NCBI RefSeq assembly: GCF_008727875.1
Contig: NZ_VTWS01000001.1
Coordinates: forward strand, 62,001 to 126,000
Direction of reading: 5' to 3'
DNA from: Larkinella humicola
Lineage (GTDB): Bacteria > Bacteroidota > Bacteroidia > Cytophagales > Spirosomataceae
Length of the DNA stretch: 64,000 bases
How positions within the stretch are numbered: the first letter of the stretch is position 1; each line of letters starts with the position of its first letter. This document shows, in pieces, positions 3,441-59,047 of the stretch. The notes below the pieces were generated by a model that was not told the origin of the DNA, ran no database searches, and saw only the letters and a program-made list of their open reading frames with translations. Both the position numbers and the translations under genes were made by a program.

Positions 3441-3676
3441 GGTTTATTAATCTAAACAAAATAAACGCCGAATTCATATTTGGCTTATCAGCCCACAGCT
3501 TTAGCTGTGGGTATAGCGAAAATTCTAACTATTACCAAAACCGTTTCAACGGTTTTACCGGCCAGCAAACCGTTAAAACGGTTCCGGGACGATTCGGTTT
3601 CGTTTCAACTTCCCACAGCTAAAGCTGTGGGCTGATAAACATTCAATCCGGCGTTTATTTTGTTTAAATCAATTAA
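3441..3676. repeat. Family A palindromic repeat, copy 1
   Basis: The unit is bounded by a perfect 18-base inverted repeat (3453-3470 and 3649-3666, TAAACAAAATAAACGCCG and its complement). Inside come, in order, CCCACAGCTTTAGCTGTGGG, AACCGTTTCAACGGTT, AACCGTTAAAACGGTT and CCCACAGCTAAAGCTGTGGG, each itself a small palindrome. Copy 2 at 24560-24790 is the same unit in inverted orientation, and a degenerate third copy is at 45064-45374. Confidence 0.85.
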
Positions 3677-5768: not shown

Positions 5769-5850
5769 GATAGGAACACGGATTGAACGGATCAAAACGA
5801 ATTACAATCGGTGTAAATCCGTTTTGATCCGTTCAATCCGTGTTCCTATC
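5769..5850. repeat. 31-bp perfect inverted repeat overlapping a stop codon
   Basis: Arms 5769-5799 and 5820-5850 are exact reverse complements (31 bases) around a 20-base loop. The right arm contains the TAG stop of the lyase gene (5846-5848). It sits between two co-directional genes, so it may act as an attenuator or mRNA-stabilising hairpin; it has no U-tract. Confidence 0.85.
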
Positions 5851-24559: not shown

Positions 24560-24790
24560 CTAATTGATTTAAACAAAATAAACGCCGAAGTGAATGTTTA
24601 TCAGCCCACAGCTTTAGCTGTAGGAAATTGAAACAAAACCAAATCATTCCAGAACCGTTTCAACGGTTTTCTGGCCGATAAAACCGTTGAAACGGTTCTG
24701 TAGTAGGTGGAACTTTTCGCTATACCCACAGCTAAAGCAGTGGGCTGATAAGCCAAATATGAAGCCGGCGTTTATTTTGTTTAAACCAAT
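24560..24790. repeat. Family A palindromic repeat, copy 2 (inverted)
   Basis: Bounded by the same perfect 18-base inverted repeat (24570-24587 and 24766-24783). The inner order is CCCACAGCTTTAGCTG, AACCGTTTCAACGGTT, AACCGTTGAAACGGTT and CAGCTAAAGCAGTGGG. Compared with copy 1, its left half matches the reverse complement of copy 1's right half. It fills the gap between two convergent genes and may serve as a bidirectional terminator. Confidence 0.85.
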
Positions 24791-39565: not shown

Positions 39566-39585
39566 CGGCAAATGGGCAAAAAAAG

Positions 39586-39683
39586 GTCAATGTAAAATTT
39601 CAACTGGTGAATGCTAAATGTAAAAGTGGGGCTGGCGGACTACTTTTATATTTAGCATTCACCAGTTGAAATTTTACATTGAC
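39586..39683. repeat. 42-bp near-perfect inverted repeat after ppsA
   Basis: Arms 39586-39627 and 39642-39683 pair with one mismatch over 42 bases around a 14-base GC-rich loop. It lies in the gap between the convergent ppsA and usp genes, where it could stop transcription from both sides. The arms start with GTCAATGTAAAATTTCAACT. Confidence 0.85.
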
Positions 39684-39760
39684 TTCTCTTCACTACGCAC
39701 CAAAAAAGCAGGAGTCATCGACCCCTGCTTTTCCATCAATCCATCCTAGCTTACTTTCTT

Positions 39761-44446: not shown

Positions 44447-44977
44447 ATGTTTTTCTCCCTGACTTTTTTCTGGACGGCCTACACGGTCGCCAACCTCTTG
44501 TTCCTCGTCGCCATCTGGGGAAGCAAAAAATGGCCCCGGACCACCCGGCTGTTTTTTCTGCTCCTGTTTGGCTGGGCCGCCTGGTTCAATGCGTCGATGG
44601 CTTTGATTTCCCCTTCGGTGTATCAGGATTATGCCGACACCGCCATTCCGCTGTATCGCTGGTTTATCATGGGACCGTTTGTAACGATCATCCGACCCAT
44701 GATCCTGGTGATTGCTGCCGGTCAGGCCCTGATTGCCGGGTCGATGCTTCTGAAAGGAGAGCTTTTTAAGCTGGGTTGCTGGGATGGGCTGGTTTTCGGA
44801 CTGGCCATTGCTCCACTGGGATTGTATGCGGCTTTTCCGTCTACGGTTCTGATGGCGATTGCCTTTTACCGGCTGCAAAAAAACCATGACGATACGTATT
44901 TGTGGGAGACCAAAAACGAAAAACCGGGGAGAAGGACGAACAGAAAATCCCTTTCAACCCGGCATGCGGCCTCCTGA
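44447..44977 (+). CDS. Predicted inner-membrane protein
   Basis: Hydrophobic protein of 176 residues with about five membrane segments (SLTFFWTAYTVANLLFLVAIWG, LFFLLLFGWAAWFNASMALI, FVTIIRPMILVIAAGQALIAG, WDGLVFGLAIAPLGLYAAF) and a charged C-terminal tail (NEKPGRRTNRK). I recognise no family. It is the last gene of the plus-strand group that begins with the L,D-transpeptidase, and it ends before a long repeat region. Confidence 0.7.
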   Translation: MFFSLTFFWTAYTVANLLFLVAIWGSKKWPRTTRLFFLLLFGWAAWFNASMALISPSVYQDYADTAIPLYRWFIMGPFVTIIRPMILVIAAGQALIAGSMLLKGELFKLGCWDGLVFGLAIAPLGLYAAFPSTVLMAIAFYRLQKNHDDTYLWETKNEKPGRRTNRKSLSTRHAAS

Positions 44978-45063: not shown

Positions 45064-45374
45064 CTAATTAATTTAAATTTAATGACCAGCGAACTGAATG
45101 TTTATCAGCCCACTGCTTTAGCTGTTTGAGTTAATCGGGGAGAGCCCTGGAAGGGCGGTCTGTCACTAGTCCACAGCCGATAGCAACGAGTGGTAGCTCC
45201 GGAGGAGCGGTCTAAAAACATCTTCAGTCCGCTCCTCCGGAGCTACCACTCGTTGCTATCGGCTGTGGACTAGTGACAGGACAGGCCTCCGGCCTTCATT
45301 CAAACAACTTCTAAAGCAGTGGGCTGATAAACCAAAATAGTTAATTCGGCGCTTAGTATGCTTAAATCAATTAG
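45064..45374. repeat. Family A repeat, copy 3, split by family B
   Basis: The left half (CTAATTAATTTAAATTTAAT, then GAATGTTTATCAGCCCACTG) and right half (AAAGCAGTGGGCTGATAA, ending GCTTAAATCAATTAG) match the outer parts of copies 1 and 2. The central AACGG hairpins are absent and replaced by a family B unit at 45127-45304. The end repeats have decayed, consistent with an older copy. Confidence 0.75.
45127..45304. repeat. Family B palindromic repeat, copy 1
   Basis: A perfect 51-base inverted repeat (45160-45210 and 45229-45279) surrounds an 18-base loop. The inner core is GGTAGCTCCGGAGGAGCGG and its complement. Outside are GAGTTAA...AGCCCTGGAAGGGC on one side and CAGGCCTCCGGCCTTCATT on the other. 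Copy 2 at 57419-57590 is inverted; its loop, core and flanks match, but the outer two thirds of the arms differ while still pairing perfectly within the copy. Confidence 0.9.
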
Positions 45375-45441
45375 GGGCTCAAAAATGACAGAGCTAAGCC
45401 CCCTTCTGGGGCCGGACCGACGCTTCGGGGCAACGATAGCT

Positions 45442-46803
45442 CTAAACCGTCTGCGAAAACAACCGGGTCTGAGGCTGGGCCTGGTTGAGCCGCGCATCGA
45501 ACGCCATGCAGATATTCCGCAGGAAGGGCCGTCCTTCGGGCAGTACCCGCAAGCCTTCCGCGTTGAAATCGATCAACCCGTCGAACCGGAACGAGTCCAG
45601 CCGGTCGCACAAAACCGCCCACTCGTCCTCCGTCCAGCCATCCCGGGTCCACCGGGTTTCGCCCTGACACATGATGTTCAGAATCTGCCGACGCAAAAAC
45701 TGGTCTTGCTGGCTCAGCACATGGCCGCGCAGCAGCGGCAATTCGCCCGCCCGGACCCGGCCGAGATACGCATCGAGGTCTTTTTCGTTCTGGGCAAACG
45801 CCGACCACACATCGCCGATGGACGAGGTTCCGAGACCGATCAGGGCGCGGGTTCGGGTGGTCGTGTAGCCCATGAAATTCCGGTGCAGCGTCCCGGTTTG
45901 CAGCGCTTTGAACAAGGCATCGTGCGGCAGGGCAAAATGGTCAATGCCGATTTCGACGTACCCCGCCTGCTCCAGCAACGCCCGCCCGGTTTCGTAAAGA
46001 ATCCGTTTCTGCTCACCCGACGGCAGGTCTTCGTCCCGAAAACCGCGTTGCCCGTTGCCCTTGATCCAGGGAACGTGCGCGTAGGAATAAAACGCAATGC
46101 GGTCGGGCCGTAGCATCAGGGTTTTGTAGAACGTATCGGTAATAGAATCCGGCGTCTGAAACGGCAGTCCAAACACGATGTCGTGGCTAATCGATTGGTA
46201 GCCCATCTGGCTGGCCCAGGTCGTCACCTGCTGCACGTTTTCGAACGGCTGAAGCCGGTGAATGGCTTTTTGCACCACCGGGTCGTAGTCCTGAACGCCA
46301 AAGCTGACCCGCCGGAAACCAAACTGATAGAGTACCCGCAGGTGCTGGCGGGTAGTATTGTTGGGGTGACCTTCCCAGCCGTAATCCGGAAATTCGGTGG
46401 GCGTGGCGCGTTCGAAAATACCCGTCAACAGCCGTTCAAGCTGTTTAGGCGCAAAAAAACTGGGCGTTCCTCCCCCCAGGTGCAGTTCGGCCAGACGCGG
46501 CCGTTCCAGCAGCAAATCACAGTAGAGATTCCATTCCGCCAAAACCGCATCGATGTACGGTTCTTCGACGCCGTGGTTGCGGGTGATGCGCTTGTTGCAG
46601 CCGCAAAACGTACACAGGCTTTCACAATACGGCAGGTGAATATACAGGCTCAAACCGGTCGTGCTGTTGCTGATTGAAACCGCTTGTCTGAGATTTTGCA
46701 CCCAGGCGGTTTCGCTGAACGTGGTTTCGTCCCAGAACGGCACAGTCGGGTAGCTGGTGTAGCGCGGGCCGGGAACGTCGTATTTCTGAATGAGAGACTG
46801 CAT
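45442..46803 (-). CDS. hemN: Oxygen-independent coproporphyrinogen III dehydrogenase
   Basis: Radical SAM enzyme of 453 residues that makes protoporphyrinogen without oxygen, for haem synthesis under low oxygen. The 4Fe-4S motif is CxxxCxxC at C60, C64 and C67 (YCESLCTFCGCNK), followed by HLGGGTPSFF and the C-terminal HemN region (RHVLSQQDQFLRRQILNIMC). The start ATG before QSLIQKYD is preferred, as the 16-codon extension upstream runs into the divergent promoter. It is divergent from ccoI, so the two likely share a low-oxygen control region. Confidence 0.94.
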   Translation of the reverse strand: MQSLIQKYDVPGPRYTSYPTVPFWDETTFSETAWVQNLRQAVSISNSTTGLSLYIHLPYCESLCTFCGCNKRITRNHGVEEPYIDAVLAEWNLYCDLLLERPRLAELHLGGGTPSFFAPKQLERLLTGIFERATPTEFPDYGWEGHPNNTTRQHLRVLYQFGFRRVSFGVQDYDPVVQKAIHRLQPFENVQQVTTWASQMGYQSISHDIVFGLPFQTPDSITDTFYKTLMLRPDRIAFYSYAHVPWIKGNGQRGFRDEDLPSGEQKRILYETGRALLEQAGYVEIGIDHFALPHDALFKALQTGTLHRNFMGYTTTRTRALIGLGTSSIGDVWSAFAQNEKDLDAYLGRVRAGELPLLRGHVLSQQDQFLRRQILNIMCQGETRWTRDGWTEDEWAVLCDRLDSFRFDGLIDFNAEGLRVLPEGRPFLRNICMAFDARLNQAQPQTRLFSQTV

Positions 46804-46851
46804 ACGGATTGGAGATTTGCGCACCAAAATTGGCGGAGATTCGCACGCCAT

Positions 46852-46893
46852 ACCCTGACCGGTATCACTCGGTTTGCTGACGCTCGTCAGGGT
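46852..46893. promoter_or_regulatory. Palindromic sites in the hemN-ccoI divergent promoter
   Basis: ACCCTGAC (46852-46859) is the complement of GTCAGGGT (46886-46893), and within it CTGACG-CT-CGTCAG (46877-46890) is a 14-base palindrome. The 132-base gap is the shared control region of two low-oxygen genes, so an operator for a CRP/FNR-type factor is plausible. The match to a known site is not shown. Confidence 0.35.
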
Positions 46894-46935
46894 TTAACGA
46901 CCTGTTCCGACCCAATTTGCCAAGAAAAATATGGT

Positions 46936-49401
46936 ATGCGTACAGCAACGATTTCAGCGACTACCTGTTACCACTGCGGCAACGACTGTGCAGAGCACAA
47001 CCTTGAATACGATGAAAAACCGTTCTGCTGCGAAGGCTGCCAAACGGTCTACAGCATTCTGAATCAAAACCAGTTATGTCAATATTATTCGATTGAACAG
47101 GAAGGCACCGGCGTTCGGCCCGGCAACCCCCTCAAAACGGAAAATACCCCAAAAAACCGGCTCGACTTTCTGAATCATCCCGCCATCGTTGCCCAACTGC
47201 TGTCCTTTTCCAGTGCGTCGGTCGCCCGGGTTACCTTTTACGTTCCGACCATCCATTGCAGTTCCTGTCTATGGTTGCTCGAACACCTCTACCGCATCCA
47301 TCCGGGCATTCAGCAGTCGCGGGTGGATTTTCTCAAAAAGCAGGTTCACCTGACCTACCAGCCCGATCAGCTCACGCTCCGGCAGGTGGTCGAACTGCTC
47401 GCGTCGATTGGCTACGAGCCGCTGATCAGCCTGAACGATGTCGTTAAAGAACAGCAAAAACCGTCGTACCGCCCCTTGCTCTACCGGCTGGCCCTGGCGG
47501 GTTTTTGTTCGGGCAACATCATGCTGTTCAGCTTTCCCGAATACCTCGGCCTCGACGATCCATCGTTCAAACACCTCTTCGGTCTGCTCAACATTGTGCT
47601 GGCCATTCCGGTCGTCTTTTACTCGGCATCGGGCTATTTCGAATCGGTCTGGACGAGTCTGAAAAAAGGCATCATCAACATCGACTTTCCCATTCTGCTC
47701 GGGATTCTGGTCGCGTTTTTCCGGGGAACCTACGAGGTTCTGTTTCTCAACGGTGCCGGTTATTTCGATTCGCTGACGGGCCTGATTTTCTTTCTGTTGT
47801 GCGGCAAATGGTTCCAGCAGCGTACCCACGAATTTCTGTCGTTCGAACGGGATTACAAATCGTATTTTCCGCTGGCCGTAACGGTTTTAAAACCGGAGGG
47901 CGAAACCGCCATTCCCGTAGCCGAACTCCGCAAGGGTGACCGCATCCGGGTTCGTAACTACGAACTGATTCCCGCCGACGGATTGCTGTATAAAGGCCAG
48001 GCTACCATCGATTACAGTTTCGTAACGGGTGAATCGGAGCCGGAAGCCCAGAAACCGGGGGCGTTGCTGTATGCCGGTGGCAAGCAGATTGGCGAAGCCA
48101 TTGAACTGGAAGTGGTGCGGGAGGTGTCGCAAAGTTACCTGACCCAACTCTGGAACAACGACGCGTTCCGCAAGGGCGACACCTCCCGAATGCGCACCTT
48201 TGCCGATGCTGTCGGGAAGTATTTTACCCTGACCGTCATTGCGCTAGCCACGATCGTGGGCTTATACTGGTACACGCACGACCCCGCGCGGGCCATCAAC
48301 GCCTTTACGGCGGTTCTGATCATTGCCTGTCCATGTGCGCTGTCCCTGTCGTATCCGTTCGCGCTGGGGAATGGAATTCGGAAGCTGAGCCAGCAGAAAT
48401 TGTACCTCAAAAACGCGGACGTCATCGAGCACATGGCGGATTGTGACACCATCGTCTTTGACAAAACCGGTACGCTGACGGAGACCGTGAGTGAAAGAGT
48501 GATGGAACGAATGCGTGAAGACAAACACGGGAGCGTTGTGGAGGAGTTTTCGGTAGCTTTGACGAACTTTGAACAGGCGCTGGTGATCTCACTGGTGCGG
48601 CAGTCGGCCCACCCGCTCAGCCGGAAACTGGCCGCTCATCTGGCCGGCGTTCAACCGCTGGTGGTGGAGGATTTTATGGAAATACCGGGTCGCGGGTTAC
48701 ACGGATTCGTGGATGGCTGGGAAGTCAAAATCGGCTCTGCTTCGTTTGTAAATCCGCAGTCAATGTCGTCAATATCCTCAAAAGAAACCGCAACCGATTC
48801 AGCCGGAGCGCGTGTCCATATGGCCATCGAGCAGCAATACCGGGGTTGTTTCCGGTTTCCGAACCAGTACCGCCCCGGTCTCGATGCGATGCTCGATTTG
48901 CTGAAATCTACGCACCAACTGTATCTGCTTTCGGGCGATACCGACACGGCCCGGCCCGAACTGGCACGCTGGTTTACCCCGGATCACATGACGTTCAACT
49001 GCCAGCCGCAGCAAAAGCTCGACATCGTGCGGCACCTGCAAAACCGGGGCCACCGCGTGCTGATGGTGGGTGACGGCCTGAACGATGCCGGGGCGCTGAA
49101 ACAGGCCGATGTCGGCATGGCCGTCACGGAAGACACCGTTCAGTTTACACCCGCCAGCGACGCCATTCTGGAAGCATCCTCACTACGAAAACTGCCCGAA
49201 CTGCTGGCGTACAGCCGCTTCGGTATGCGGCTGATCCGGTTTAGTTTTGCGGTTTCGCTGCTGTATAACTTCATAGGTCTTTCCTACGCGTTAACGGGGA
49301 ATCTTTCGCCGGTTGTGGCCGCCATCCTGATGCCCGTCAGTTCCGCGACGATGTTGCTGATTGGGACCCTGGGGATGCGGTGGAAAGCGATTGGGAAGTA
49401 A
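46936..49401 (+). CDS. ccoI: Copper-translocating P1B-type ATPase for cbb3 oxidase (CcoI/FixI)
   Basis: Membrane ATPase of 821 residues that supplies copper to cbb3 oxidase. The N terminus has a cysteine-rich metal-binding segment (C11, C14, C18, C31, C32, C35) and then an HMA domain with C108-SS-C111. Next come the CPC channel motif (C465-P-C467), the phosphorylation site D509 in FDKTGTLTE and the hinge GDGLNDAGALKQADVG. The long upstream frame is rejected because it crosses the hemN start. After DKTGTLTE there is an unusual charged stretch. The normal partner ccoS is about 1.7 kb away, separated by mazEF and a desaturase gene. Confidence 0.92.
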   Translation: MRTATISATTCYHCGNDCAEHNLEYDEKPFCCEGCQTVYSILNQNQLCQYYSIEQEGTGVRPGNPLKTENTPKNRLDFLNHPAIVAQLLSFSSASVARVTFYVPTIHCSSCLWLLEHLYRIHPGIQQSRVDFLKKQVHLTYQPDQLTLRQVVELLASIGYEPLISLNDVVKEQQKPSYRPLLYRLALAGFCSGNIMLFSFPEYLGLDDPSFKHLFGLLNIVLAIPVVFYSASGYFESVWTSLKKGIINIDFPILLGILVAFFRGTYEVLFLNGAGYFDSLTGLIFFLLCGKWFQQRTHEFLSFERDYKSYFPLAVTVLKPEGETAIPVAELRKGDRIRVRNYELIPADGLLYKGQATIDYSFVTGESEPEAQKPGALLYAGGKQIGEAIELEVVREVSQSYLTQLWNNDAFRKGDTSRMRTFADAVGKYFTLTVIALATIVGLYWYTHDPARAINAFTAVLIIACPCALSLSYPFALGNGIRKLSQQKLYLKNADVIEHMADCDTIVFDKTGTLTETVSERVMERMREDKHGSVVEEFSVALTNFEQALVISLVRQSAHPLSRKLAAHLAGVQPLVVEDFMEIPGRGLHGFVDGWEVKIGSASFVNPQSMSSISSKETATDSAGARVHMAIEQQYRGCFRFPNQYRPGLDAMLDLLKSTHQLYLLSGDTDTARPELARWFTPDHMTFNCQPQQKLDIVRHLQNRGHRVLMVGDGLNDAGALKQADVGMAVTEDTVQFTPASDAILEASSLRKLPELLAYSRFGMRLIRFSFAVSLLYNFIGLSYALTGNLSPVVAAILMPVSSATMLLIGTLGMRWKAIGK

Positions 49402-49483
49402 GATGACAATGATGAATGACGTCTGAGCGGTTAGTAGATTTTCAACTAACCGGCAAAAAATCCGTGTTTAAAAAAGACGGTTT

Positions 49484-49524
49484 CGAGCTGATTTGTTATA
49501 CCTTTGTTATAACAAATCAGCTCG
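49484..49524. promoter_or_regulatory. mazEF operator-promoter palindrome
   Basis: Arms CGAGCTGATTTGTTATA (49484-49500) and TATAACAAATCAGCTCG (49508-49524) are exact complements around a 7-base spacer. The spacer and left arm hold TACCTTTG (49499-49506), a match to the TAnnTTTG promoter core. It ends 6 bases before the antitoxin start. MazE-type antitoxins bind such palindromes and repress their own operon. Confidence 0.75.
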
Positions 49525-49530
49525 AAATGT

Positions 49531-49788
49531 ATGCTACAGATCATTCGTAAAATTGGCAACTCACAAGGTATTCTCCTGCCGCGAACGGTTCTGCAACAGG
49601 CAGGCATTGAAGGTGCGGTTGACATTGAAATAACTGAAGGAGCGCTTATCCTGCGCGCTGTCAAAAAACACCCAAGGGACGGCTGGGAACAGGTTTTTGA
49701 TGAAGCAATCAAAGCCGGAGATCAGCCCGAAGGCGATCTGTTTGATGGCACACCAAACCAGTTTGACCAAACTGAGTGGACATGGTAA
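49531..49788 (+). CDS. mazE: MazE/AbrB-type antitoxin
   Basis: Antitoxin of 85 residues with an N-terminal swapped-hairpin DNA-binding domain (MLQIIRKIGNSQGILLPRTVLQQAGI, then VDIEITEGALILRAVKK) and an acidic C-terminal tail (DQPEGDLFDG) expected to wrap the toxin. It is the first gene of a two-gene unit, preceded directly by a perfect palindrome that is probably its operator. Its last codons overlap the mazF start. Confidence 0.93.
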   Translation: MLQIIRKIGNSQGILLPRTVLQQAGIEGAVDIEITEGALILRAVKKHPRDGWEQVFDEAIKAGDQPEGDLFDGTPNQFDQTEWTW

Positions 49789-50105
49789 TTGAGCGGTTTG
49801 ACGTTTGGCTGGTTTCATTAGATCCGACCCAGGGCAGCGAGATTGCCAAAACACGTCCTTGTTTGATTGTATCCCCGGATGCGATTAACCAACGGCTCAA
49901 TACCGTGATGGTTGCGCCTTTAACCAGCACGCAAAAGCGTTATCCCACCCGAGTCAACTGCCAATTCTCCGGTCAGGCTGGTCAGGTCGCTTTAGATCAG
50001 ATCCGCACGGTTGACAAAGTTCGATTGGTAAAACACATCGGGCGCTTAGACGACGCGGTATGCCACCAGGTGTGCCAGACACTGGTTGCCCTCTTTACGT
50101 ATTAA
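49782..50105 (+). CDS. mazF: MazF/PemK-type mRNA interferase toxin
   Basis: Endoribonuclease of 107 residues that cuts mRNA at short single-stranded sites. The family blocks are MVIERFDVWLVSLDPTQGSEIAKTRPCLIVSPD, VMVAPLTS and GQVALDQIRTVDKVRLV, with an Arg and a Thr/Ser in the expected catalytic strands. A GTG start two codons earlier is also in frame; either way the start lies inside the last codons of mazE, a coupling typical of the pair. Confidence 0.93.
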   Translation: MVIERFDVWLVSLDPTQGSEIAKTRPCLIVSPDAINQRLNTVMVAPLTSTQKRYPTRVNCQFSGQAGQVALDQIRTVDKVRLVKHIGRLDDAVCHQVCQTLVALFTY

Positions 50106-50113
50106 AAGGAAAA

Positions 50114-50158
50114 ACGGCGTTGTTTTCCAACAGGATATCCCACTGAAAACAACGCCGT
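50114..50158. terminator. Bidirectional hairpin between mazF and desaturase
   Basis: ACGGCGTTGTTTT (50114-50126) and AAAACAACGCCGT (50146-50158) pair perfectly. The A/T ends of the stem give a U-tract in both directions. It lies between convergent genes and should terminate both. Confidence 0.8.
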
Positions 50159-50174
50159 CTCGCATTGAATCACC

Positions 50175-50924
50175 TTACATATACGCTTCGTCGCGCCCGC
50201 GCCGGAGCTTCACGATGCCCAGTTTATTCATCAATAAAATCAGCGGATAAGCCGGGTCGAATTCGTGCCAGCGAAAACCGCCGAAGTTGGCCCGACCGCC
50301 GTAGCGGTGGTGGTTGTTGTGGTACGATTCGCCCATCATCAGAAAGTCGAACGGCAACAGGTTTTTGGCCGTATCGTCCACTTTGAAGTTGATGTAGCCG
50401 TAGCGGTGCGCGCACCAGTTGATGATGGCACCATGCACCGGTCCCATGAAAAAATGGAACGGCAGCAGCAGAAACAGCCAGGGTGAGGTGGCAAACTGGA
50501 TGTAGAACAGCACATAGAACGTTCCCCAGGCCACCCGAACAGGCCAGCGATCCCCGAACCATTCCATCCACGGCCAGTTAGGCACCCCCTTTTTGAACTT
50601 CGCCGGAATGGTGTCCCGGTTGTTGAGAATGTCGTTGTAAAACTGCCGGGTCTTCCACATCATATCCATCATACTCTTGGAATACTTCGGTGAATGCGGG
50701 TCTTCCTCGGTATCGGCGTAGGCGTGGTGAAGCCGGTGCATAATACCGTACGCGCGTGGACTCAAAAACGACGATCCCTGGCTAATGAACGTCACAACGT
50801 AAAAAACCTTCTCCCAGCCCTTGCTCATGGTAAACATCTGGTGGGCGGCATAGCGGTGGAGAAAGAGGGTCTGCATCAGGACCGACAGGTACCAATGCGC
50901 GAGAAAAAAGACGAGAATGATCAT
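50175..50924 (-). CDS. Acyl-CoA desaturase (stearoyl delta-9 type)
   Basis: Membrane di-iron desaturase of 249 residues. Three histidine boxes are present: HRYAAH (H23, H28), HRLHH and HNNHH, with paired hydrophobic helices between. It should introduce a double bond into acyl chains and so adjust membrane fluidity. It is divergent from ccoS and convergent with mazF. Placed inside the cco region it probably has its own control; oxygen-consuming desaturases need O2, which gives it a logical link to oxygen supply. Confidence 0.92.
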   Translation of the reverse strand: MIILVFFLAHWYLSVLMQTLFLHRYAAHQMFTMSKGWEKVFYVVTFISQGSSFLSPRAYGIMHRLHHAYADTEEDPHSPKYSKSMMDMMWKTRQFYNDILNNRDTIPAKFKKGVPNWPWMEWFGDRWPVRVAWGTFYVLFYIQFATSPWLFLLLPFHFFMGPVHGAIINWCAHRYGYINFKVDDTAKNLLPFDFLMMGESYHNNHHRYGGRANFGGFRWHEFDPAYPLILLMNKLGIVKLRRGRDEAYM

Positions 50925-51120
50925 TAAGAAAGAAGAATCTGGTGTAATAGCCCCAAAAGTAGTCCCCGTGTTTTATCGCCAGTCTAACGCCGGTCAGCCG
51001 ACCGGATGAGTTTTGTCAGCCCGCCCGGTTTACCTGAATTCTATCACCCCCCTGCCTGACGAACCTCATACGTTGCCCAGCGGATAAGCCGCACTTTTGA
51101 CCCGGCAAACGCTCACGAAT

Positions 51121-51297
51121 ATGAACATTATCTTCTTCATGATTGGCATTAGTCTGCTGCTGGCACTGGGATTTTTCGGGGCTTTTCTATGGTCGATGAA
51201 AACCGGCCAGCAGGATGACCTGTACACCCCCTCGATGCGGATGCTGCTCGACGACAACGAACCTACTACTACCTCCTCCATAGATACCCCCGCATAA
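51121..51297 (+). CDS. ccoS: Cytochrome cbb3 oxidase assembly protein CcoS
   Basis: Small membrane protein of 58 residues, beginning MNIIFFMIGISLLLALGFFG, with one transmembrane helix followed by WSMKTGQQDDLYTPSMRML, the CcoS family pattern (W-x(3)-GQ-DD). It helps to insert cofactors into the oxidase. An upstream in-frame start (8 codons earlier) is less likely, because CcoS proteins begin directly with the helix. It is 15 bases upstream of ccoNO. Confidence 0.9.
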   Translation: MNIIFFMIGISLLLALGFFGAFLWSMKTGQQDDLYTPSMRMLLDDNEPTTTSSIDTPA

Positions 51298-51312
51298 CAG
51301 CTCGTTACCACT

Positions 51313-53511
51313 ATGAATGTCTCGCAAAAACCGCCTGTTACGATTTCGCCTGAACACCCCCGACCGGGGAACGGAGCCGCTCCCGCCGTGGAACGCTTCG
51401 AGTATGACAACCGCATTGTCCGGGATTTCGCCGTTGCTACCATCATCTGGGGCGTCGTCGGCATGTTGGTCGGGGTGCTGATTGCCAGCCAGTTGTTTGC
51501 TCCGGCGGCCAACCTCGGCAACCAGTATACGACCTTCGGACGGATTCGGCCGCTGCACACCAATGCGGTTATTTTCGCCTTCGTCGGCAATGCCATTTTT
51601 ATGGGTGTGTATTACTCGCTGCAACGGCTTTGCAAAGCCCGGATGTTCAGCGATTTGCTCAGTAAAATCCACTTCTGGGGCTGGCAGGCCATCATCGTAG
51701 CCGCAGCCATTACGCTGCCGCTGGGTCTGACCACCTCCCACGAATACGCCGAACTCGAATGGCCGATCGACATCGCCATTACGCTGATCTGGGTGGTTTT
51801 CGGAATCAACATGTTCGGCACGATCATCAAACGCCGGGAGCGCCACCTATACGTCGCCATCTGGTTTTACATCGCCACGTTCGTAACCGTTGCCGTGCTG
51901 CACATCGTCAACTCGTACCAGATGCCGGTGAGTCTGTTCAAAAGTTATTACGTCTACGCCGGGGTGCAGGATGCGCTCGTGCAGTGGTGGTATGGTCACA
52001 ATGCGGTGGCATTTTTCCTGACCACGCCGTTTCTGGGGCTGATGTATTACTTCCTGCCCAAGATGGCAAACCGCCCGGTTTACTCTTACAAACTGTCAAT
52101 TCTGCACTTCTGGGCGCTGATTTTCATCTACATCTGGGCCGGTCCTCACCACTTGCTCTATTCATCGCTGCCCGACTGGGCGCAATCGCTGGGGGTGGTT
52201 TTCTCCATCATGCTCATTGCCCCCTCCTGGGGTGGGATGATCAACGGGCTGCTGACGCTGCGCGGAGCCTGGGACAAGGTTCGGGAAGATACCATCCTGA
52301 AATTCATGGTCGTCGGAATTACCGCTTACGGGATGGCCACCTTCGAAGGGCCCATGCTGTCGCTCAAGAACGTCAACGCCATTGCCCACTTTACCGACTG
52401 GATCGTAGCCCACGTACACGTCGGGGCCCTGGGCTGGAACGGTTTTCTGACCTTTGCGATCCTGTATTGGCTGATTCCGCGCATGTATAAAACGCCCCTG
52501 TATTCCAAAAAACTGCTGAGCATCCACTTCTGGATCGGGACGCTGGGAATCCTGTTCTACGCCGTTCCAATGTACATTTCGGGCTTCACCCAGGGCATGA
52601 TGTGGAAGGAGTTTACCCCCGAAGGCACCCTGCGCTACCCGAACTTCCTGGAAACGACCATCCAACTGCTGCCCATGCACCAGATGCGGGCGGTGGGGGG
52701 TACGTTCTACCTGCTGGGTGCGATTCTGATGGCTTATAACCTGTTCAAAACGATGGCGGCCGGGCAACTGGTGGTCAACGAAGCCGCCGAAGCCCCTGCT
52801 CTGGAGCAAGCCTATGTGCCGACGGGAAGCGATACCTACTGGCACCGCTGGCTGGAGCGCAAGCCCATACCGCTGCTGATTGGCTCCCTGGTGGTGATTC
52901 TGATCGGTTCGATGGTAGAATTGATTCCGACGTTCATGGTAGAGTCCAATGTGCCGACGATTTCGGCCGTTCAACCCTACAGCGCCCTCGAAGTCCAGGG
53001 CCGCGACCTCTACATCCGTGAGGGCTGCGTCAACTGCCACAGCCAGATGGTTCGGCCTTTCCGCAGCGAAACCGAACGCTACGGGGAGTATTCCAAAGCG
53101 GGCGAATTCGTGTATGACCACCCGTTCCTCTGGGGCAGCAAACGCACCGGGCCGGATCTGCACCGCGAAGGCGGCAAATACCCCGATTCCTGGCACTACC
53201 ACCACATGCGCGACCCAACGTCGATGTCGCCGGGGTCGATCATGCCCGCCTATCCGTGGCTGCTGGATCAGAAACTCGACATTTCGAATACGTCGGATAA
53301 GCTGAGAACACTGGAACAAGTGGGCGTTCCCTACGACGATGCCACGATCAGCTACGCCAACGAAGATTTGCAAAAACAGGCGCAGCAAGTCAGCGACCGC
53401 CTGGCGAAAGATGGCATCAAAGTCGACGCCGACCGCGAGATCATCGCCCTGATTGCCTACCTCCAACGGCTCGGCACGGACATCAGGAAAATGGAAAACG
53501 CAACCAAATAA
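51313..53511 (+). CDS. ccoNO: Fused cytochrome cbb3 oxidase subunits I and II (CcoN-CcoO)
   Basis: Terminal oxidase subunit of 732 residues. Residues 1-500 are CcoN: haem ligands H82, H367 and H369 and CuB ligands H229, H279 and H280 lie in HTNAVIF, WYGHNAV, AGPHHL and HVHVGALGWNG. After a short hydrophobic linker, residues 545-732 are CcoO, with one membrane anchor and a c-type haem site C572-VN-C575-H576. Fusion of N and O is known in Bacteroidota. The enzyme reduces O2 at high affinity. It is followed by ccoQ, with a hairpin in the gap. Confidence 0.95.
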   Translation: MNVSQKPPVTISPEHPRPGNGAAPAVERFEYDNRIVRDFAVATIIWGVVGMLVGVLIASQLFAPAANLGNQYTTFGRIRPLHTNAVIFAFVGNAIFMGVYYSLQRLCKARMFSDLLSKIHFWGWQAIIVAAAITLPLGLTTSHEYAELEWPIDIAITLIWVVFGINMFGTIIKRRERHLYVAIWFYIATFVTVAVLHIVNSYQMPVSLFKSYYVYAGVQDALVQWWYGHNAVAFFLTTPFLGLMYYFLPKMANRPVYSYKLSILHFWALIFIYIWAGPHHLLYSSLPDWAQSLGVVFSIMLIAPSWGGMINGLLTLRGAWDKVREDTILKFMVVGITAYGMATFEGPMLSLKNVNAIAHFTDWIVAHVHVGALGWNGFLTFAILYWLIPRMYKTPLYSKKLLSIHFWIGTLGILFYAVPMYISGFTQGMMWKEFTPEGTLRYPNFLETTIQLLPMHQMRAVGGTFYLLGAILMAYNLFKTMAAGQLVVNEAAEAPALEQAYVPTGSDTYWHRWLERKPIPLLIGSLVVILIGSMVELIPTFMVESNVPTISAVQPYSALEVQGRDLYIREGCVNCHSQMVRPFRSETERYGEYSKAGEFVYDHPFLWGSKRTGPDLHREGGKYPDSWHYHHMRDPTSMSPGSIMPAYPWLLDQKLDISNTSDKLRTLEQVGVPYDDATISYANEDLQKQAQQVSDRLAKDGIKVDADREIIALIAYLQRLGTDIRKMENATK

Positions 53512-53523
53512 CGATGGATTATG

Positions 53524-53585
53524 AATGATGAACGATGAATGGGCTGGCGCATAATTGATCGTTCATCGTTACATCGTTCATCATT
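53524..53585. repeat. Hairpin between ccoNO and ccoQ
   Basis: AATGATGAACGATG (53524-53537) and CATCGTTCATCATT (53572-53585) pair exactly over 14 bases. An additional TTCATCGTT copy lies in the loop. It may set the ratio of downstream transcript. Confidence 0.65.
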
Positions 53586-53597
53586 TCCTAACAAACC

Positions 53598-53768
53598 ATG
53601 TTCAAGCAATTTATTTCCAAAATTCCCGGCGCGGACGTCTATATGGTCGGCTCGTTTATCACCTTCCTCGCCTTTTTCATTCTCGTCGGTTTATACCTGG
53701 TTTTGGTGGATAAAACGTACATCCGCCAGATGAGCCAGATGCCCCTCGATGAATCGTCAACCGATTAA
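53598..53768 (+). CDS. ccoQ: Cytochrome cbb3 oxidase subunit CcoQ
   Basis: Small membrane protein of 56 residues, starting MFKQFISKIPGADVYMV, with a single transmembrane helix (GSFITFLAFFILVGLYLVLV) and a charged C terminus (VDKTYIRQMSQMPLDESSTD). The position between ccoNO and ccoP, the size and the topology all fit CcoQ/FixQ, which stabilises the complex. It is followed by ccoP 16 bases downstream. Confidence 0.88.
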   Translation: MFKQFISKIPGADVYMVGSFITFLAFFILVGLYLVLVDKTYIRQMSQMPLDESSTD

Positions 53769-53784
53769 CCACCTTTCTCTTTCC

Positions 53785-54627
53785 ATGAATTCATTCATTT
53801 TACTCAATGGTGGGCTGCTGGGCCAGGAACCGGCAAAATCCATCTGGGACATTTCATCCGGTCAGGATCTGTTGCTGGTTACCGTCGCTCTTTTTCTGCT
53901 GGTGGGCATGGTAGCCGTTGGAGCTGTAGCCCTGAACCTGGTGTTCCTCCTCAAAAAAATAATAGAACCCGACGCCCAAACCGTTGCCAAACCGGTCGAT
54001 ACGCGCTCCTGGTGGCAACGGATGGCGGGTTTGCACGAACTGAATCAGGAAAAAAACCTGACCATGGAACACGCCTACGACGGCATTGCCGAACTCGACA
54101 ATCCGACGCCCCCCTGGTTTATGGGGTTGTTCTACGGAACGATTGTGGCGGGTGTCATCTACCTGCTCGTGTACCACGTCTTCAACCCGGGCGACATCAT
54201 GGTGCAGGAATATACCCAGGAAATGGCCATTGCCGATAAACAGCGGGAAGATTACATCAAAAAAGTGGCCGGTTCCATCAACGAAAATACCGTTACGCTT
54301 TTGAAAGATGCGAAGGGGATTGACGCCGGGAAAGCGCTGTTCACCCAAAACTGCGTGGCTTGCCACGGCGCCAATGCCGAGGGCAAGGTGGGCCCCAACC
54401 TGACCGATGCCTACTGGCTGCACGGCGGTGACGTCAAGGCGGTTTACCACATCATTACCGAAGGCGTTCCCGAAAAAGGGATGATGTCCTGGAAAAAACA
54501 ACTGAATCCGCTCCAGGTGCAGCAAGTCGCCAGTTATATCCTGTCGCTGCAAGGCACGAACCCCGCCGGAGCGAAAGAACCGCAGGGTGAAAAAGTAGCC
54601 ACCGGCGAACCCGTTGCAACCCGCTAA
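53785..54627 (+). CDS. ccoP: Cytochrome cbb3 oxidase subunit III (CcoP), mono-haem
   Basis: Membrane-anchored cytochrome c of 280 residues. There are two N-terminal membrane helices, separated by the CcoP signature EHAYDGIAELDNPTPPWF, then a periplasmic domain with one haem site C190-VA-C193-H194 and axial Met candidates at the end of GMMSWKK. Classical CcoP has two haems c; only one CxxCH is present here. The upstream ATG (12 codons earlier) lies within ccoQ and is less likely. It transfers electrons to CcoO. Confidence 0.9.
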   Translation: MNSFILLNGGLLGQEPAKSIWDISSGQDLLLVTVALFLLVGMVAVGAVALNLVFLLKKIIEPDAQTVAKPVDTRSWWQRMAGLHELNQEKNLTMEHAYDGIAELDNPTPPWFMGLFYGTIVAGVIYLLVYHVFNPGDIMVQEYTQEMAIADKQREDYIKKVAGSINENTVTLLKDAKGIDAGKALFTQNCVACHGANAEGKVGPNLTDAYWLHGGDVKAVYHIITEGVPEKGMMSWKKQLNPLQVQQVASYILSLQGTNPAGAKEPQGEKVATGEPVATR

Positions 54628-54639
54628 CTCAACACTCCG

Positions 54640-56130
54640 ATGAAATCCAACGTAGCACTTCCCCCCTCCGACTTCCGCGATACGCTGCCCACAGCCGATG
54701 CCTCTGGCGGTCGGCGGTGGTTGTATCCGCGTGAAACCACCGGCCGGTTTACCCGCTGGCGGACGGTGGTGGCGGTGGTGCTGCTGATCGTGTTATTTGC
54801 CGGGCCGTTTGTGTGGATTGACGGACATCCACTGTTCCTGTTCAACGTGCTCGAACGCCGGTTTATCTTTTTCGGGGTGCCGTTCTGGCCGCAGGATTTT
54901 TACCTGGTTGCCTTTGGGTTGATTGCCTTCATTGTGTTTGTGGCCCTGTTCACCGTCGTCTATGGCCGGGTATGGTGCGGCTGGGCGTGTCCGCAGACGA
55001 TTTTTATGGAGATGGTTTTCCGGAAAATCGAAGGCTGGATCGAGGGTGATTTTAACGCCCGGAAACGGCTGGATGCCAGCCCCTGGACGACCGAAAAAGT
55101 AGTCAAAAAAGGACTGAAACACGGCGTTTTCTTTCTGATTTCGTTCGCCATCAGCAACACCTTTCTGGCCTACCTCATTGGTCGCGACCAGTGGCTGACC
55201 CTGATCACCGATGACCCGGCGCAACACCTCGCCGGTCTGGCGGCCATCGTAGTCTTTACGGGTGTATTTTACCTCGTTTTTGCCTGGCTGCGCGAGATCG
55301 TCTGCACGACGATCTGCCCGTACGGACGGCTGCAAGGCGTTTTGCTGGACAAAAACTCCCTGATCGTCGCGTATGACTACATCCGGGGAGAACCACGCGG
55401 GAAACGAGTGAAGAGTGAAGAATTAAGAGTTAAGAATGAAGAGTTAAGAGTTAAGAGTTTTCCTGATGGAGCCAGTTCGTCACCGACCGGCGACCCGGCC
55501 TTAACTCTTCACTCCCGAAAGGGCGATTGCATCGACTGCAAACTTTGTGTGCAGGTTTGTCCGATGGGAATCGACATTCGGAACGGGACACAACTGGAAT
55601 GCATCAATTGCACGCTCTGCATCGACGTCTGTGATAGTGTCATGGACAAAATCGAACTGCCCCAGGGACTGATCCGCATGGATTCGCAGGCCAATATCGA
55701 GCAGGGAAAACCGTTCCGGTTTACGGCCCGGATTCTGGCCTACAGTGGCGTATTACTCGTTTTGTTGGGAATCATCGGTTTTCTGCTCGTCAGCCGACCG
55801 GTGATGGACGTGACGGTTTTGCGGGCACCAGGGCAGTTGTACCAGCGCGAAACGGGTGGCAAGGTATCGAATCTGTATCTGGTGGAAGTGATCAACAAGA
55901 CCTACCGGACGTTGCCGGTTCAATTCCGCCTGAGCCGAACGGACGCCAAACTGCGTTTCGTACAGCCGCTGTCGTCGGTGCCGGCCGGGGAACAGACCAA
56001 AGGGATGTTCTTCATCGATTTACCGGAAAAAACCATCCGCCAAAACAGTACACCACTTCACATCGACGTGCTGGCCGGTAACGAAGTCGTCGACCAGATC
56101 GAAACCACGTTTCTGGGACCGGTCAAGTAA
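54640..56130 (+). CDS. ccoG: CcoG/FixG-type Cu/Fe-S assembly protein
   Basis: Membrane-bound 4Fe-4S protein of 496 residues involved in reducing copper for cbb3 oxidase assembly. About four membrane helices are followed by two ferredoxin clusters (C297, C300, C303, C307 and C321, C324, C327, C331) and a C-terminal Ig-like FixG domain. The loop between the last helix block and the first cluster is extended: residues about 257-292, with EELRVKNEELRVK, are coded by an intergenic-type repeat. Family members usually have only about 10 residues in that place. Confidence 0.93.
   Translation: MKSNVALPPSDFRDTLPTADASGGRRWLYPRETTGRFTRWRTVVAVVLLIVLFAGPFVWIDGHPLFLFNVLERRFIFFGVPFWPQDFYLVAFGLIAFIVFVALFTVVYGRVWCGWACPQTIFMEMVFRKIEGWIEGDFNARKRLDASPWTTEKVVKKGLKHGVFFLISFAISNTFLAYLIGRDQWLTLITDDPAQHLAGLAAIVVFTGVFYLVFAWLREIVCTTICPYGRLQGVLLDKNSLIVAYDYIRGEPRGKRVKSEELRVKNEELRVKSFPDGASSSPTGDPALTLHSRKGDCIDCKLCVQVCPMGIDIRNGTQLECINCTLCIDVCDSVMDKIELPQGLIRMDSQANIEQGKPFRFTARILAYSGVLLVLLGIIGFLLVSRPVMDVTVLRAPGQLYQRETGGKVSNLYLVEVINKTYRTLPVQFRLSRTDAKLRFVQPLSSVPAGEQTKGMFFIDLPEKTIRQNSTPLHIDVLAGNEVVDQIETTFLGPVK
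55406..55515 (+). repeat. Intergenic-type palindromic repeat within ccoG
   Basis: AGAGTGAAGAATTAAGAGTT-type tandem units (about three) run from 55406 to 55459, and a complementary TTAACTCTTCACTC arm is at 55501-55514. The insert is in frame, and the same motif occurs in the gap after the SafE gene and at the ahcY end (57337-57376 and 57598-57609), so it is a mobile or spreading repeat rather than original coding sequence. Confidence 0.8.
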
Positions 56131-56132
56131 TT

Positions 56133-56213
56133 GAGTGATTGAGCGAAGTAGATTCCTTGTTCACTCTGGACCGGTTTTGCTTTTCACTCAATCACTACTT
56201 CACTCAATCACTC
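56133..56213. repeat. Hairpin between ccoG and ccoH
   Basis: GAGTGATTGAGCGAAGTA (56133-56150) pairs with TACTTCACTCAATCACTC (56196-56213) with one mismatch. It begins 2 bases after the ccoG stop and ends 9 bases before the ccoH start. Confidence 0.7.
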
Positions 56214-56222
56214 CATAAAACC

Positions 56223-56648
56223 ATGAACTGGGGAAAAGCCATCGTACTCGTTTACATCCTGTTTGCCGGATTTATCGGCACCCTGGTGTATCTCATGTGC
56301 CGCCAACGGGTCGATCTGGTGCGCGATGATTATTACCAAACCGAAATCGCCTTTCAACAACAGATTGACCGGGTAGCTCGAACCGCCAAACTGGCGGATT
56401 CGCCCACCATTCGCTTCGATGCCACCCGGCAGACGATCGAACTGACGCGATCAGAAGCGGGTTCAACCGGCGGCAAACTGACATTTTACCGCCCTTCGGA
56501 TCGCCGACAGGATCGGAGTGTTGCCTTGCAGCCCGGCCAAACGACGGTTTCGACCCCCAAACTGGCGTCCGGTTTCTGGCGTGTGCAACTAAACTGGCTG
56601 GAAAACGGGCAGGAATATTATAGCGAACAAACCGTAACCATTCCGTAA
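56223..56648 (+). CDS. ccoH: FixH/CcoH family assembly protein
   Basis: Membrane-anchored protein of 141 residues with one N-terminal helix (WGKAIVLVYILFAGFIGTLVYLM) and a periplasmic beta-rich domain ending VSTPKLASGFWRVQLNWLE. The FixH signature of a basic/acidic segment DLVRDDYYQTEIAFQQQI follows the helix. It is needed for maturation of cbb3 oxidase, together with CcoI and CcoG. The longer frame starting 28 codons upstream runs through a hairpin and is rejected. The soluble FixH-like protein at 41603-41848 resembles its C-terminal domain. Confidence 0.87.
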   Translation: MNWGKAIVLVYILFAGFIGTLVYLMCRQRVDLVRDDYYQTEIAFQQQIDRVARTAKLADSPTIRFDATRQTIELTRSEAGSTGGKLTFYRPSDRRQDRSVALQPGQTTVSTPKLASGFWRVQLNWLENGQEYYSEQTVTIP

Positions 56649-56649
56649 C

Positions 56650-57339
56650 GTGCAGAATGTCTGGATCATCGCAGCCCTGACCACGGGTTTAGTCGGAAGC
56701 CTGCACTGCGTCGGCATGTGCGGACCACTAGCGATGGCCTTGCCCGTCGGACGATTGCCCCGTTCACAACGGGTGCTCGCGATGGGACTGTATCATGTAG
56801 GTAGAATTACCGCGTATTCCGGGCTGGGGTTGCTGGTCGGCACCATCGGCCAGGGGCTGTTGCTGGCGGGTTTGCAACGGTCGGTATCGATTGCGGCCGG
56901 TCTGTTCCTGCTGCTCTGGGTTCTGTTCCAGCACGGAAAACGGGCCGGTTTGTCTCTGAATGGGGGACGAGGCTGGGTGACCAAACCGATGTCCCGTTTT
57001 TTGCAAAGCCCTACATTACAGGCATTTACCGGACTCGGTTTCCTGAACGGTTTATTGCCCTGCGGTTTTTTGTATGTAGCCCTGACCGGAGCCATCACAA
57101 CCGGAAGCGCGGCAACCGGCGCATTCTACATGGCGGTGTTCGGGCTGGGAACGGTTCCGGCTTTGTTGCTGGTCCGGTTTGTCCCGACGTTTTTCCCGGC
57201 AAACCTACGACGCCGGTTTACGGTCTTGATGCCGGTCATCACGATTGCCCTGGCCTTTCTCTTATTGATCCGGGGCTTCTATCCTTCCACCGTCATTGAC
57301 CAGACGGGCCACGAAGTTCCATTGTGCCACGGGAAATGA
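56650..57339 (+). CDS. Sulfite exporter TauE/SafE family protein (cbb3-linked)
   Basis: Membrane protein of 229 residues with six or seven helices. The N-terminal GSLHCVGMCGPLAMALP motif and later GFLNGLLPCGFLYVALTGA are the paired Cys/Gly motifs of this family, which is also called DsbD/SafE-like and occurs in cco loci, where it may move copper or thiol equivalents. The likely start is GTG, 1 base after the ccoH stop (TAACGTG), giving tight coupling. It ends the cco operon. Confidence 0.85.
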   Translation: MQNVWIIAALTTGLVGSLHCVGMCGPLAMALPVGRLPRSQRVLAMGLYHVGRITAYSGLGLLVGTIGQGLLLAGLQRSVSIAAGLFLLLWVLFQHGKRAGLSLNGGRGWVTKPMSRFLQSPTLQAFTGLGFLNGLLPCGFLYVALTGAITTGSAATGAFYMAVFGLGTVPALLLVRFVPTFFPANLRRRFTVLMPVITIALAFLLLIRGFYPSTVIDQTGHEVPLCHGK

Positions 57340-57418
57340 GTTAAGAATTAAGAGTGAAGAGTTAAAAATTAAAAGTAGGCTGACGCGTTCAACTGCGAAA
57401 TCTTGTTTTAACGGTTTA

Positions 57419-57590
57419 AATGAAGGCCGGAGGTCTGTCCTGTTAATAGACAATCGCAGCCATCAGTAGTGGTAGCTCCGGAGGAGCGGCCTGAAGATGC
57501 TTTTAGACCGCTCCTCCGGAGCTACCACTACTGATGGCTGCGATTGTCTATTAACAGATCGCCCTTTCAGGGCTATCCCGGTTAACTCAA
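57419..57590. repeat. Family B palindromic repeat, copy 2 (inverted)
   Basis: Perfect 50-base arms (57440-57489 and 57508-57557) surround an 18-base loop. The core GGTAGCTCCGGAGGAGCGG and the loop, when reversed, match copy 1. The flanks (TGAAGGCCGGAGG and CGCCCTTTCAGGGCTATCCC) match the opposite ends of copy 1. The outer 28 bases of the arm differ from those of copy 1, yet pair without a mismatch. Confidence 0.9.
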
Positions 57591-57605
57591 CCAGCTTGTT
57601 AACTC

Positions 57606-58922
57606 TTAATACCGGTACAGATCCGATTTGTAGGGGCCTTCGGTGGTGACGCCGATGTATTCCGCCTGTTCCTGATCCAGTTTTTCCAGTTTTGCGCCCA
57701 CGTGATCGAGGTGCAAAGCCGCTACTTTCTCATCGAGGTGTTTCGGCAGAATGTAGACCTTGTTTTCGTATTTGTCCGAATTGGCCCACAGTTCCAACTG
57801 CGCCAGCGTCTGGTTCGAGAACGAGCAGGACATCACGAACGACGGGTGACCCATCGCAACGCCCAGGTTCACCAGACGGCCTTCGGCCAGCACGATGATT
57901 TCTTTGCCGTCGATTTCATACAAATCGACCTGCGGTTTGATCTGGCTCTTCGAATGACCGTAGTTTGCATTCAGCCACGCCATGTCGATTTCGTTGTCGA
58001 AGTGACCAATGTTACAAACCACCGCCTTGTCGCGCATCGTCTTGAAGTGACGATCTTTGACGATGTTGATGTTGCCCGTTGCGGTTACGAAAATATTGGC
58101 GCGGGTCGCAGCCTCGTCCATCGTGACCACTTCGTAACCGTCCATCGCGGCTTGCAGCGCGCAAATCGGGTCGATCTCTGTCACCAGCACGCGGCAACCG
58201 GCGCCACGGAGTGATTCGGCAGAACCTTTCCCTACGTCACCATACCCGGCGACAACCGCTACTTTACCAGCCAGCATCAGGTCGGTTCCGCGACGGATGG
58301 CATCCACCAGCGACTCGCGGCAGCCGTATTTGTTATCGAATTTCGATTTGGTAACCGAGTCGTTGACGTTGATGGCGGGCAAATGCAGCGTCCCGTTTTT
58401 CATGCGCTCATACAACCGGTGAACACCTGTCGTCGTTTCTTCCGACAAGCCTTTGATGTTGGCAATCAATTCCGGATAGAGGTCGAAAACCATGTTGGTC
58501 AGGTCACCACCATCGTCCAGAATCATATTCAGCGGTTTCCGCTCTTCGCCAAAGAACAACGTCTGCTCAATACACCAGTTAAATTCTTCCTCGTTCATGC
58601 CTTTCCACGCGTACACCGAAATACCGGCGGCTGCAATGGCGGCTGCGGCATGGTCTTGCGTCGAGAAGATGTTACACGATGACCAGGTCACTTCGGCACC
58701 CAGTTCAACCAGTGTTTCGATCAGAACGGCGGTCTGGATCGTCATGTGCAGACAACCGGCAATGTAGGCACCAGCGAGGGGTTTCGACGGTCCGAACTCT
58801 TTGCGGAGGGACATCAAACCCGGCATTTCGGCTTCGGCCAACCGGATTTCCTTGCGGCCCCATTCGGCCAGCGCGATGTCTTTAACTTTGTACGGAACGT
58901 ACGTGGATGTTTCTGTAGACAT
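57606..58922 (-). CDS. ahcY: Adenosylhomocysteinase
   Basis: NAD-dependent enzyme of 438 residues that hydrolyses S-adenosylhomocysteine to adenosine and homocysteine, so it clears the product of methylation reactions. The signatures GSSN-like [30 protein letters not shown] (NAD site) and [13 protein letters not shown] are clear, as is the C-terminal KSDLYRY. The length is normal. The TAA stop lies in a TTAACTCTTAAT stretch shared with the intergenic repeat, and a family B repeat sits just downstream. Confidence 0.97.
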
Positions 58923-58961
58923 AAAAAGGGAGTAATTAATGCTTGATGAATAGAGAGGTAT

Positions 58962-59033
58962 TCGGTTTTCAGTTTACGGTGGCTGACGCGCGCTTAGAAA
59001 AGAACGCGCTAGCCACCGTAAACTGAAAACCGA
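58962..59033. repeat. Perfect hairpin between aminotransferase and ahcY
   Basis: TCGGTTTTCAGTTTACGGTG-type left arm (58962-58984) pairs with 59011-59033 over 23 bases. The loop itself contains GCGCG and CGCGC. It lies upstream of ahcY and 14 bases downstream of the aminotransferase stop, so it may be a terminator for the latter. Confidence 0.75.
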
Positions 59034-59047
59034 GTACAGTAAACCAT

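Follow-up and report, generated by a model that had tools for sequence, protein, structure and literature searches.

The window analysed here is a stretch of 64,000 nucleotides (nt) of the 7.86-Mb Larkinella humicola genome (G000:C11:62001-126000). It contains two long hairpins, copy 1 and copy 2, which belong to an interspersed intergenic repeat designated family B, and whose perfectly matched arms are the subject of this report. The arms of copy 1 (45160-45210 and 45229-45279) are complementary at 51 of 51 positions, those of copy 2 (57440-57489 and 57508-57557) at 50 of 50, and both pairs enclose an 18-nt loop. The perfect arms of 50-51 bp and the common core described in an earlier note on this DNA were thus confirmed. 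The core GGTAGCTCCGGAGGAGCGG is found at 45192-45210(+), 45229-45247(-), 57471-57489(+) and 57508-57526(-); with up to 3 mismatches allowed, the window contained no other match, and 0.02 would be expected by chance. Very stable RNA folds were predicted for both hairpins (copy 1, -124.7 kcal/mol, z -17.8; copy 2, -115.1 kcal/mol, z -18.4). Copy 1 is located between the convergent open reading frames (ORFs) 44447-44977(+) and 45442-46851(-), and copy 2 between the convergent ORFs 56650-57339(+) and 57606-58922(-). The last of these resembles, and presumably encodes, an S-adenosylhomocysteinase (ahcY-like).

The hairpins form the centre of a unit of approximately 190 bp, which consists of two unlike small end hairpins, a pair of 10-nt tags (CTGTYAMTAG), two variable zones of about 22 nt, one per side, the conserved 19-bp core and the 18-nt loop. 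Read by eye from the B to the A side, the order is the end AGAAGTTGTTTGAATGAAGGCCGGAGGCCTGTC, CTGTCAATAG, the variable zone, GGTAGCTCCGGAGGAGCGG, the loop, the mirror image of this arrangement to CTATTGACAG, and the end ACCGCCCTTCCAGGGCTCTCCCCGGTTAACTCAAACAGCTTGT. The ends were judged by eye across copies, and the limits of the elements are approximate. Copy 1 (45120-45312, A side left) has the ends AGCTGTTTGAG... and ...TTCAAACAACTTCT. From left to right it comprises the A-side small hairpin GCCCTGGAAGGGC (45144-45156), the left arm beyond the core with tag and variable zone (45160-45191, +), the core, the loop (45211-45228), the reverse complement of the core, the right arm beyond the core, which is the perfect complement of the left (45248-45279, -), and the B-side small hairpin GGCCTCCGGCC (45284-45294). 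Copy 2 (57415-57599) is reversed relative to copy 1, with the B side left. Its left arm beyond the core (57440-57470, +) is followed by the core, the loop (57490-57507), the core complement, the perfectly complementary right arm (57527-57557, -) and the A-side small hairpin GCCCTTTCAGGGC (57561-57573). The loops of the two copies were noted earlier as having opposite orientation. This is correct for the forward strand; in the frame of the element the flanks are reversed as well, and both loops point the same way.

Arm pairing among family B copies

The relatives compared were Larkinella knui KCTC42998 (G003), Larkinella sp. C7 (G007) and a further genome of the same genus (G004). Arm pairing was scored by a script in 46 two-armed records from 42 loci, made up of 13 of the 15 two-core copies of L. 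humicola and 33 records of loci L083-L137. The measurement omits the core pairs L001, L021, L098, L105, L127 and one of L125, for which the outer tag was not found. Six of the 46 records had perfect arms (L004, L006, L008, L020 and L026 in L. humicola, L092 in G007), and all six belong to the young subfamily. Among the 13 measured copies of L. humicola, the five perfect ones were accompanied by four with 1-3 mismatches, two with a 7-nt one-sided indel, one mosaic-like copy and one with unpaired arms. The arms of L089 and L091, L. humicola copies of another subfamily, were unpaired.

In 19 two-armed young copies, identity in the variable zone was 0.883 within copies (median 1.00; 11 of 19 perfect) and 0.500 between them. 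When the arms beyond the tag were aligned pairwise, identity was 0.901 within versus 0.634 between copies, and 0.82-0.86 in the flanks (L092 was omitted from these figures, and L101 and L104 also from the between-copy arm figure). Thus the variable zone differs between copies more than the flanks do, yet it stays paired. For 27 of 38 arms the strictly best match was the mate in the same copy (15 of 24 within L. humicola alone). The earlier claim that arms are alike within copies and diverged between them therefore holds as a tendency; as a rule without exception it fails, with perfect arms in only 5 of 13 measured L. humicola copies and with L089 and L091 unpaired. Across 15 copies 96.6% of the cells paired, compared with 83.4% in shuffles. 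Both sides had changed in 85 cells, whereas shuffles gave 24.1 on average and slid partners 9-16; eight cells were one-sided G-U and 25 were unpaired.

Copy 2 has an orthologous insertion in L. knui (L104/L142). The element stands in the corresponding gap in the same orientation, with the flanking AACGGTT in common on one side; on the other side L. knui lacks a short stretch. The arms of copy 2 match each other, and so do those of the L. knui orthologue save in two places. The two elements differ by five mirrored and two one-sided changes in 26 columns, or by four and two in 25 pairs when the whole site is aligned. G004 and G007 have no element in this gap but a hairpin of unrelated sequence. 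Both are closer to L. humicola than L. knui is at both anchor genes, so a shared insertion requires later loss in these two genomes; independent insertion at the same spot in L. humicola and L. knui is less likely. The unrelated hairpin, downstream of the counterpart of ORF 57606-58922 in G004 (L140) and G007 (L141), is of the TTAAGAGTGAAGAGTTAAAAATT type, and its near-perfect arms differ between the two species.

Mirrored changes and loop inversions at unrelated hairpins

Hairpins of any sequence were compared in three syntenic blocks covering 553 kb of L. humicola and the matching DNA of G007, with L. knui available for two blocks and G004 for one. Inverted repeats with a score of 14 or more numbered 44, 31 and 30 in the three L. 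humicola blocks, the 44 being those of the 200-kb block that holds the window. Two first-order Markov shuffles of this block contained none, and a wholly chance origin of the hairpins was rejected. In the window, further long near-perfect hairpins of other sequence families lie at 39579-39690, 5769-5850 and 58958-59037.

For the orthologous-site test palindromes were chosen in L. humicola only. An earlier version, in which they were picked in both species (81 mirrored and 52 one-sided changes), was biased towards matched arms and was replaced. Of 224 site pairs attempted, 142 could be anchored in the relative: 91 were alignable, 33 had no palindrome there, one had a related palindrome and 17 an unrelated one. 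Palindrome density alone may account for these 17 apparent exchanges of one hairpin for another. The 91 alignable site pairs (65 distinct palindromes) contained 2026 base pairs, among which 222 had changed on one side, 69 on both sides while still paired, and 21 on both sides with loss of pairing. The 90 double changes compare with 19.9 expected under independence and with 27-43 when the partners were slid by 1-3 positions. In a realignment that included pairs unpaired in L. humicola, sliding by 1-5 positions gave 22-39 double changes, 2-12 of them complementary, as against 94 and 73 in register. A mirrored change was present in at least one relative for 35 of the 65 palindromes.

The same pattern was seen in 12 palindromes (20 site pairs) that have no similar arm elsewhere in the 553 kb: 32 one-sided changes, 15 mirrored and no unpaired double changes, with 2.5 double changes expected. 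The clearest case is AAAGTCAGCCTCCTGATCG, found exactly only at its own locus across the L. humicola and G007 genomes; in G007 its loop is inverted and its arms show a mirrored T/G change.

Among the 91 site pairs the loop was inverted in nine and had kept its orientation in 55; 12 cases were undecided and 15 unmapped. A stricter rule left six inverted and 41 unchanged. Positions 45624 and 131719 of block A are examples of inversion. Relative to the flanks, the family B loop had one orientation in eight of 15 copies and the other in six, with one copy unclear. Two L. humicola copies, L014 (C13:1009165) and L016 (C13:1034645), carry nearly the same hairpin, including a one-sided 7-nt deletion, in opposite orientation between the same flanks; this is a flip of the whole hairpin without homogenisation. 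In an older element (L091 in L. humicola, L128 in L. knui) the whole interior is inverted, unpaired linkers included.

Anatomy and classification of family B

In the L. humicola genome the core was matched 34 times, with 2 mismatches allowed, at 19 places. Contigs C3, C13 and C16 start within family B hairpins. The places at the starts of C3 and C13 share the same arm and, to judge by that arm, are probably halves of one copy, so that the two contigs would abut. Among the element matches listed, many were in L. knui and G007 and three weak ones in G004; five other members of the genus gave no match to the element. Two Pontibacter records have the same core and small flanking hairpins with linkers that are unpaired by eye, and the linkers of older subfamilies are mostly unpaired as well. 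The fully paired arm therefore seems to be a derived state of the young subfamily. Core-less copies (L084-L088, L096 and L097) retain short stems, which is what deletion inside the hairpin would leave. L016 is a clean insertion: the matching site in G007 is empty, and the junction at this single empty site is compatible with a TA/TTA duplication of 2-3 bp. As candidate terminal inverted repeats, the two ends identified by eye (AGAAGTTGTTTGAATGAA and ACAAGCTGTTTGAGTTAA) match at 14 of 18 positions. Copy 1 is nested within the arms (45100-45126 and 45306-45332) of another hairpin repeat, TTATCAGCCCAC...; further copies of that repeat lie at 3485-3638 and 24598-24751.

Most young copies carry GTAG within the stem, and many other copies have other letters there. 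Family B was therefore not assigned to the GTAG-tagged repetitive extragenic palindromes (REPs), in which an unpaired GTAG stands beside a stem-loop of 20-40 nt. The Y1_Tnp profile gave seven matches in L. humicola. One of them, L080 (C13:524608-524856), is an apparently incomplete open frame of 111 amino acids covering profile positions 3-85 of 121, and units with the family B tag and core lie at most about 0.5 kb from it; it is the only one of the seven stretches with the core motif. In the other six the core was not matched, and near-matches to a tag or end hairpin numbered one at most, save in L082, where the tag had two. A known RNA family was rejected on the basis of zero Rfam matches in the window at the gathering score. 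No exact core was found in viral contigs, and spread on them is not supported. A simple terminator scan around copy 1, which admitted loops of 3-8 nt and stems of no more than 20 pairs and was thus unable to score the whole hairpin, detected two stem plus T-run candidates in other parts of the gap but none at the hairpin itself. We regard family B as an unnamed REP-like or MITE-like (miniature inverted-repeat transposable element) repeat whose hairpin arms evolve together.

Explanations for the matched arms

Mirrored changes, their excess over expectation, inverted loops and shortened copies were all observed. We consider it fairly probable that the arms stay matched, or become matched again, since one is copied onto the other by template switching at quasi-palindromes. 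During replication the growing strand would fold back on, or switch to, the other arm, and a mutation in one arm would thereby be copied onto the other; an interstrand switch would also invert the loop. Between such events the arms would lose their match through one-sided changes, and deletion inside the hairpin would make some copies collapse. Insertion of the unit itself is evidenced for one copy by the empty site described above. Template switching in replication is the most likely cause, rather than another form of arm-to-arm copying.

The earlier note had suggested hairpin-driven correction. The mirrored orthologous changes, including those in hairpins without a similar arm elsewhere, and the loop inversions argue for it; several observations weigh on the other side. 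Pairing is still missing from old family-B-like copies that three species share (L028/L100/L109 and L091/L128/L135). One-sided changes outnumber mirrored ones, 222 to 69, and this threefold excess means that the arms are copied onto each other slowly or only in part. Of the nine loop inversions scored, three are weak. The changes observed were differences between species rather than mutation itself, and either arm may have been the donor. Since neither G004 nor G007 has copy 1 at the corresponding position, the perfect arms of this copy might reflect no more than its young age. L023 resembles a mosaic made up of two arm types, and in G007 the L014/L099 site has a left arm of another type; both suggest exchange between family B copies, and an exchange tract covering the whole hairpin could yield mirrored changes in this family. 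On balance, arm copying seems to be genuine though incomplete, and the stem is likely to be under some selection in addition.

Selection on the stem as the explanation, with the hairpins acting as two-way terminators or 3'-end protectors and compensatory mutations restoring pairing, appears unlikely. It agrees with the very stable predicted folds and with the location of the 15 L. humicola copies, of which a simple ORF heuristic placed eight in convergent, seven in tandem and none in divergent (promoter) gaps. Per arm position, one-sided changes (222 in 2 x 2026) also amounted to about half of the divergence in the flanks (0.105). However, when the orthologous sites were realigned with other ends (68 mirrored and 202 one-sided changes in total), the mirrored changes comprised 34 transversions and 34 transitions, similar to the flanks (362 and 318), and thus showed no excess of transitions such as a path via G-U pairs would produce. 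In family B only eight one-sided G-U cells stood beside 85 double-sided ones. The arms in total diverge about as fast as the flanks (0.098-0.100 versus 0.105), many copies persist with broken pairing, and loop inversions bring the stem no gain, whereas template switching explains them (PMC8604942, PMC8794818).

That copies are born perfect by transposition and later overwritten whole by ectopic conversion, so that identity within copies reflects youth and exchange, is quite improbable. The clean insertion of L016 at a site empty in G007, the absence of copy 1 from G004 and G007, the mosaic-like L023 and the foreign left arm at L014/L099 all speak in its favour. Against it, copy 2 is common to L. 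knui yet perfect, and its arm sequence is in none of the other L. humicola copies compared. Palindromes without a similar arm in the sampled DNA, one of which was checked for an exact second copy across the whole L. humicola and G007 genomes, have the same mirrored changes. Birth and conversion also leave unexplained why arms differ between copies more than the flanks do.

An assembly artefact, in which short-read assemblers force perfect hairpins, is very improbable: three L. humicola contigs do start inside such hairpins and after one G007 copy come an N and a repeat of half the hairpin, but identical arms occur at orthologous sites of two separate assemblies (L026/L101) and imperfect copies were assembled as imperfect.

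Beyond family B it is possible, though less likely than not, that most long intergenic Larkinella palindromes, whatever their family, are repeatedly re-perfected and flipped by template switching, and that some sites swap the whole hairpin for unrelated sequence while a palindrome persists; the intergenic hairpins would then make up a general compartment of the genome in which arms are copied fast. Template switching itself is already known, and the same behaviour across many unrelated intergenic hairpins of Larkinella is the more interesting part. Compensatory change in a stem is usually taken as proof of a functional RNA. Many unrelated Larkinella stems combine strong covariation with a flank-like mutational make-up and flipped loops, and covariation taken by itself could therefore be misleading. 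Larkinella hairpins offer natural material for testing a mutational process whose study has otherwise relied on yeast, Escherichia coli and RNA genes. Lack of a hairpin nuclease was not supported as the reason for the many palindromes: SbcD passes its cut-off, and the adjoining SbcC-like gene scores below the SbcC cut-off. With SbcD and this SbcC-like neighbour present, the upkeep of perfect palindromes becomes a testable question, and the many natural hairpins make rates of template switching, decay and deletion measurable in such a bacterium. In the literature searched we recognised nothing on this repeat, on arm homogenisation of Bacteroidota intergenic hairpins or on such an extent in one genus, though absence is not proof.

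Several known systems are comparable. REPs and bacterial interspersed mosaic elements (BIMEs) with REP-associated tyrosine transposases (RAYTs) are likewise intergenic palindromic units in composite arrays, and in most young family B copies GTAG precedes the core palindrome; family B differs in its unit of about 190 bp, its stem of about 50 bp, its tens of copies and its GTAG inside the stem instead of an unpaired tag (PMC3733652). For perfect inverted repeats, a survey that covered 118,019 genomes reports that within species spacers vary more than arms, above all near terminators; in the portion available no mirrored-change test was found, and the words Bacteroidota and Bacteroidetes are absent from its main text (PMC13155455). 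Long perfect palindromes kept in evolving sequence are also known from Nematomorpha mitochondria, although these are mitochondrial and protein-coding (PMC6649704). Quasipalindrome-associated hot spots of E. coli are similar in that an imperfect hairpin is altered by a template switch, but they are a laboratory system, whereas Larkinella represents natural divergence (PMC7202029). RNA hairpins created or maintained by template switching share the mirrored multi-base changes and rare loop inversions. These are microRNA and rRNA hairpins, for which the authors call the evidence for upkeep of short stems less clear; the Larkinella hairpins have no Rfam match in the window and were tested with a slide control (PMC8794818). 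In yeast genes template switching homogenises the arms of inverted repeats, inverts the spacer and clusters changes, all as in Larkinella, but there it acts on short repeats in coding DNA among strains, and here on long hairpins between genes and across species (PMC8604942).

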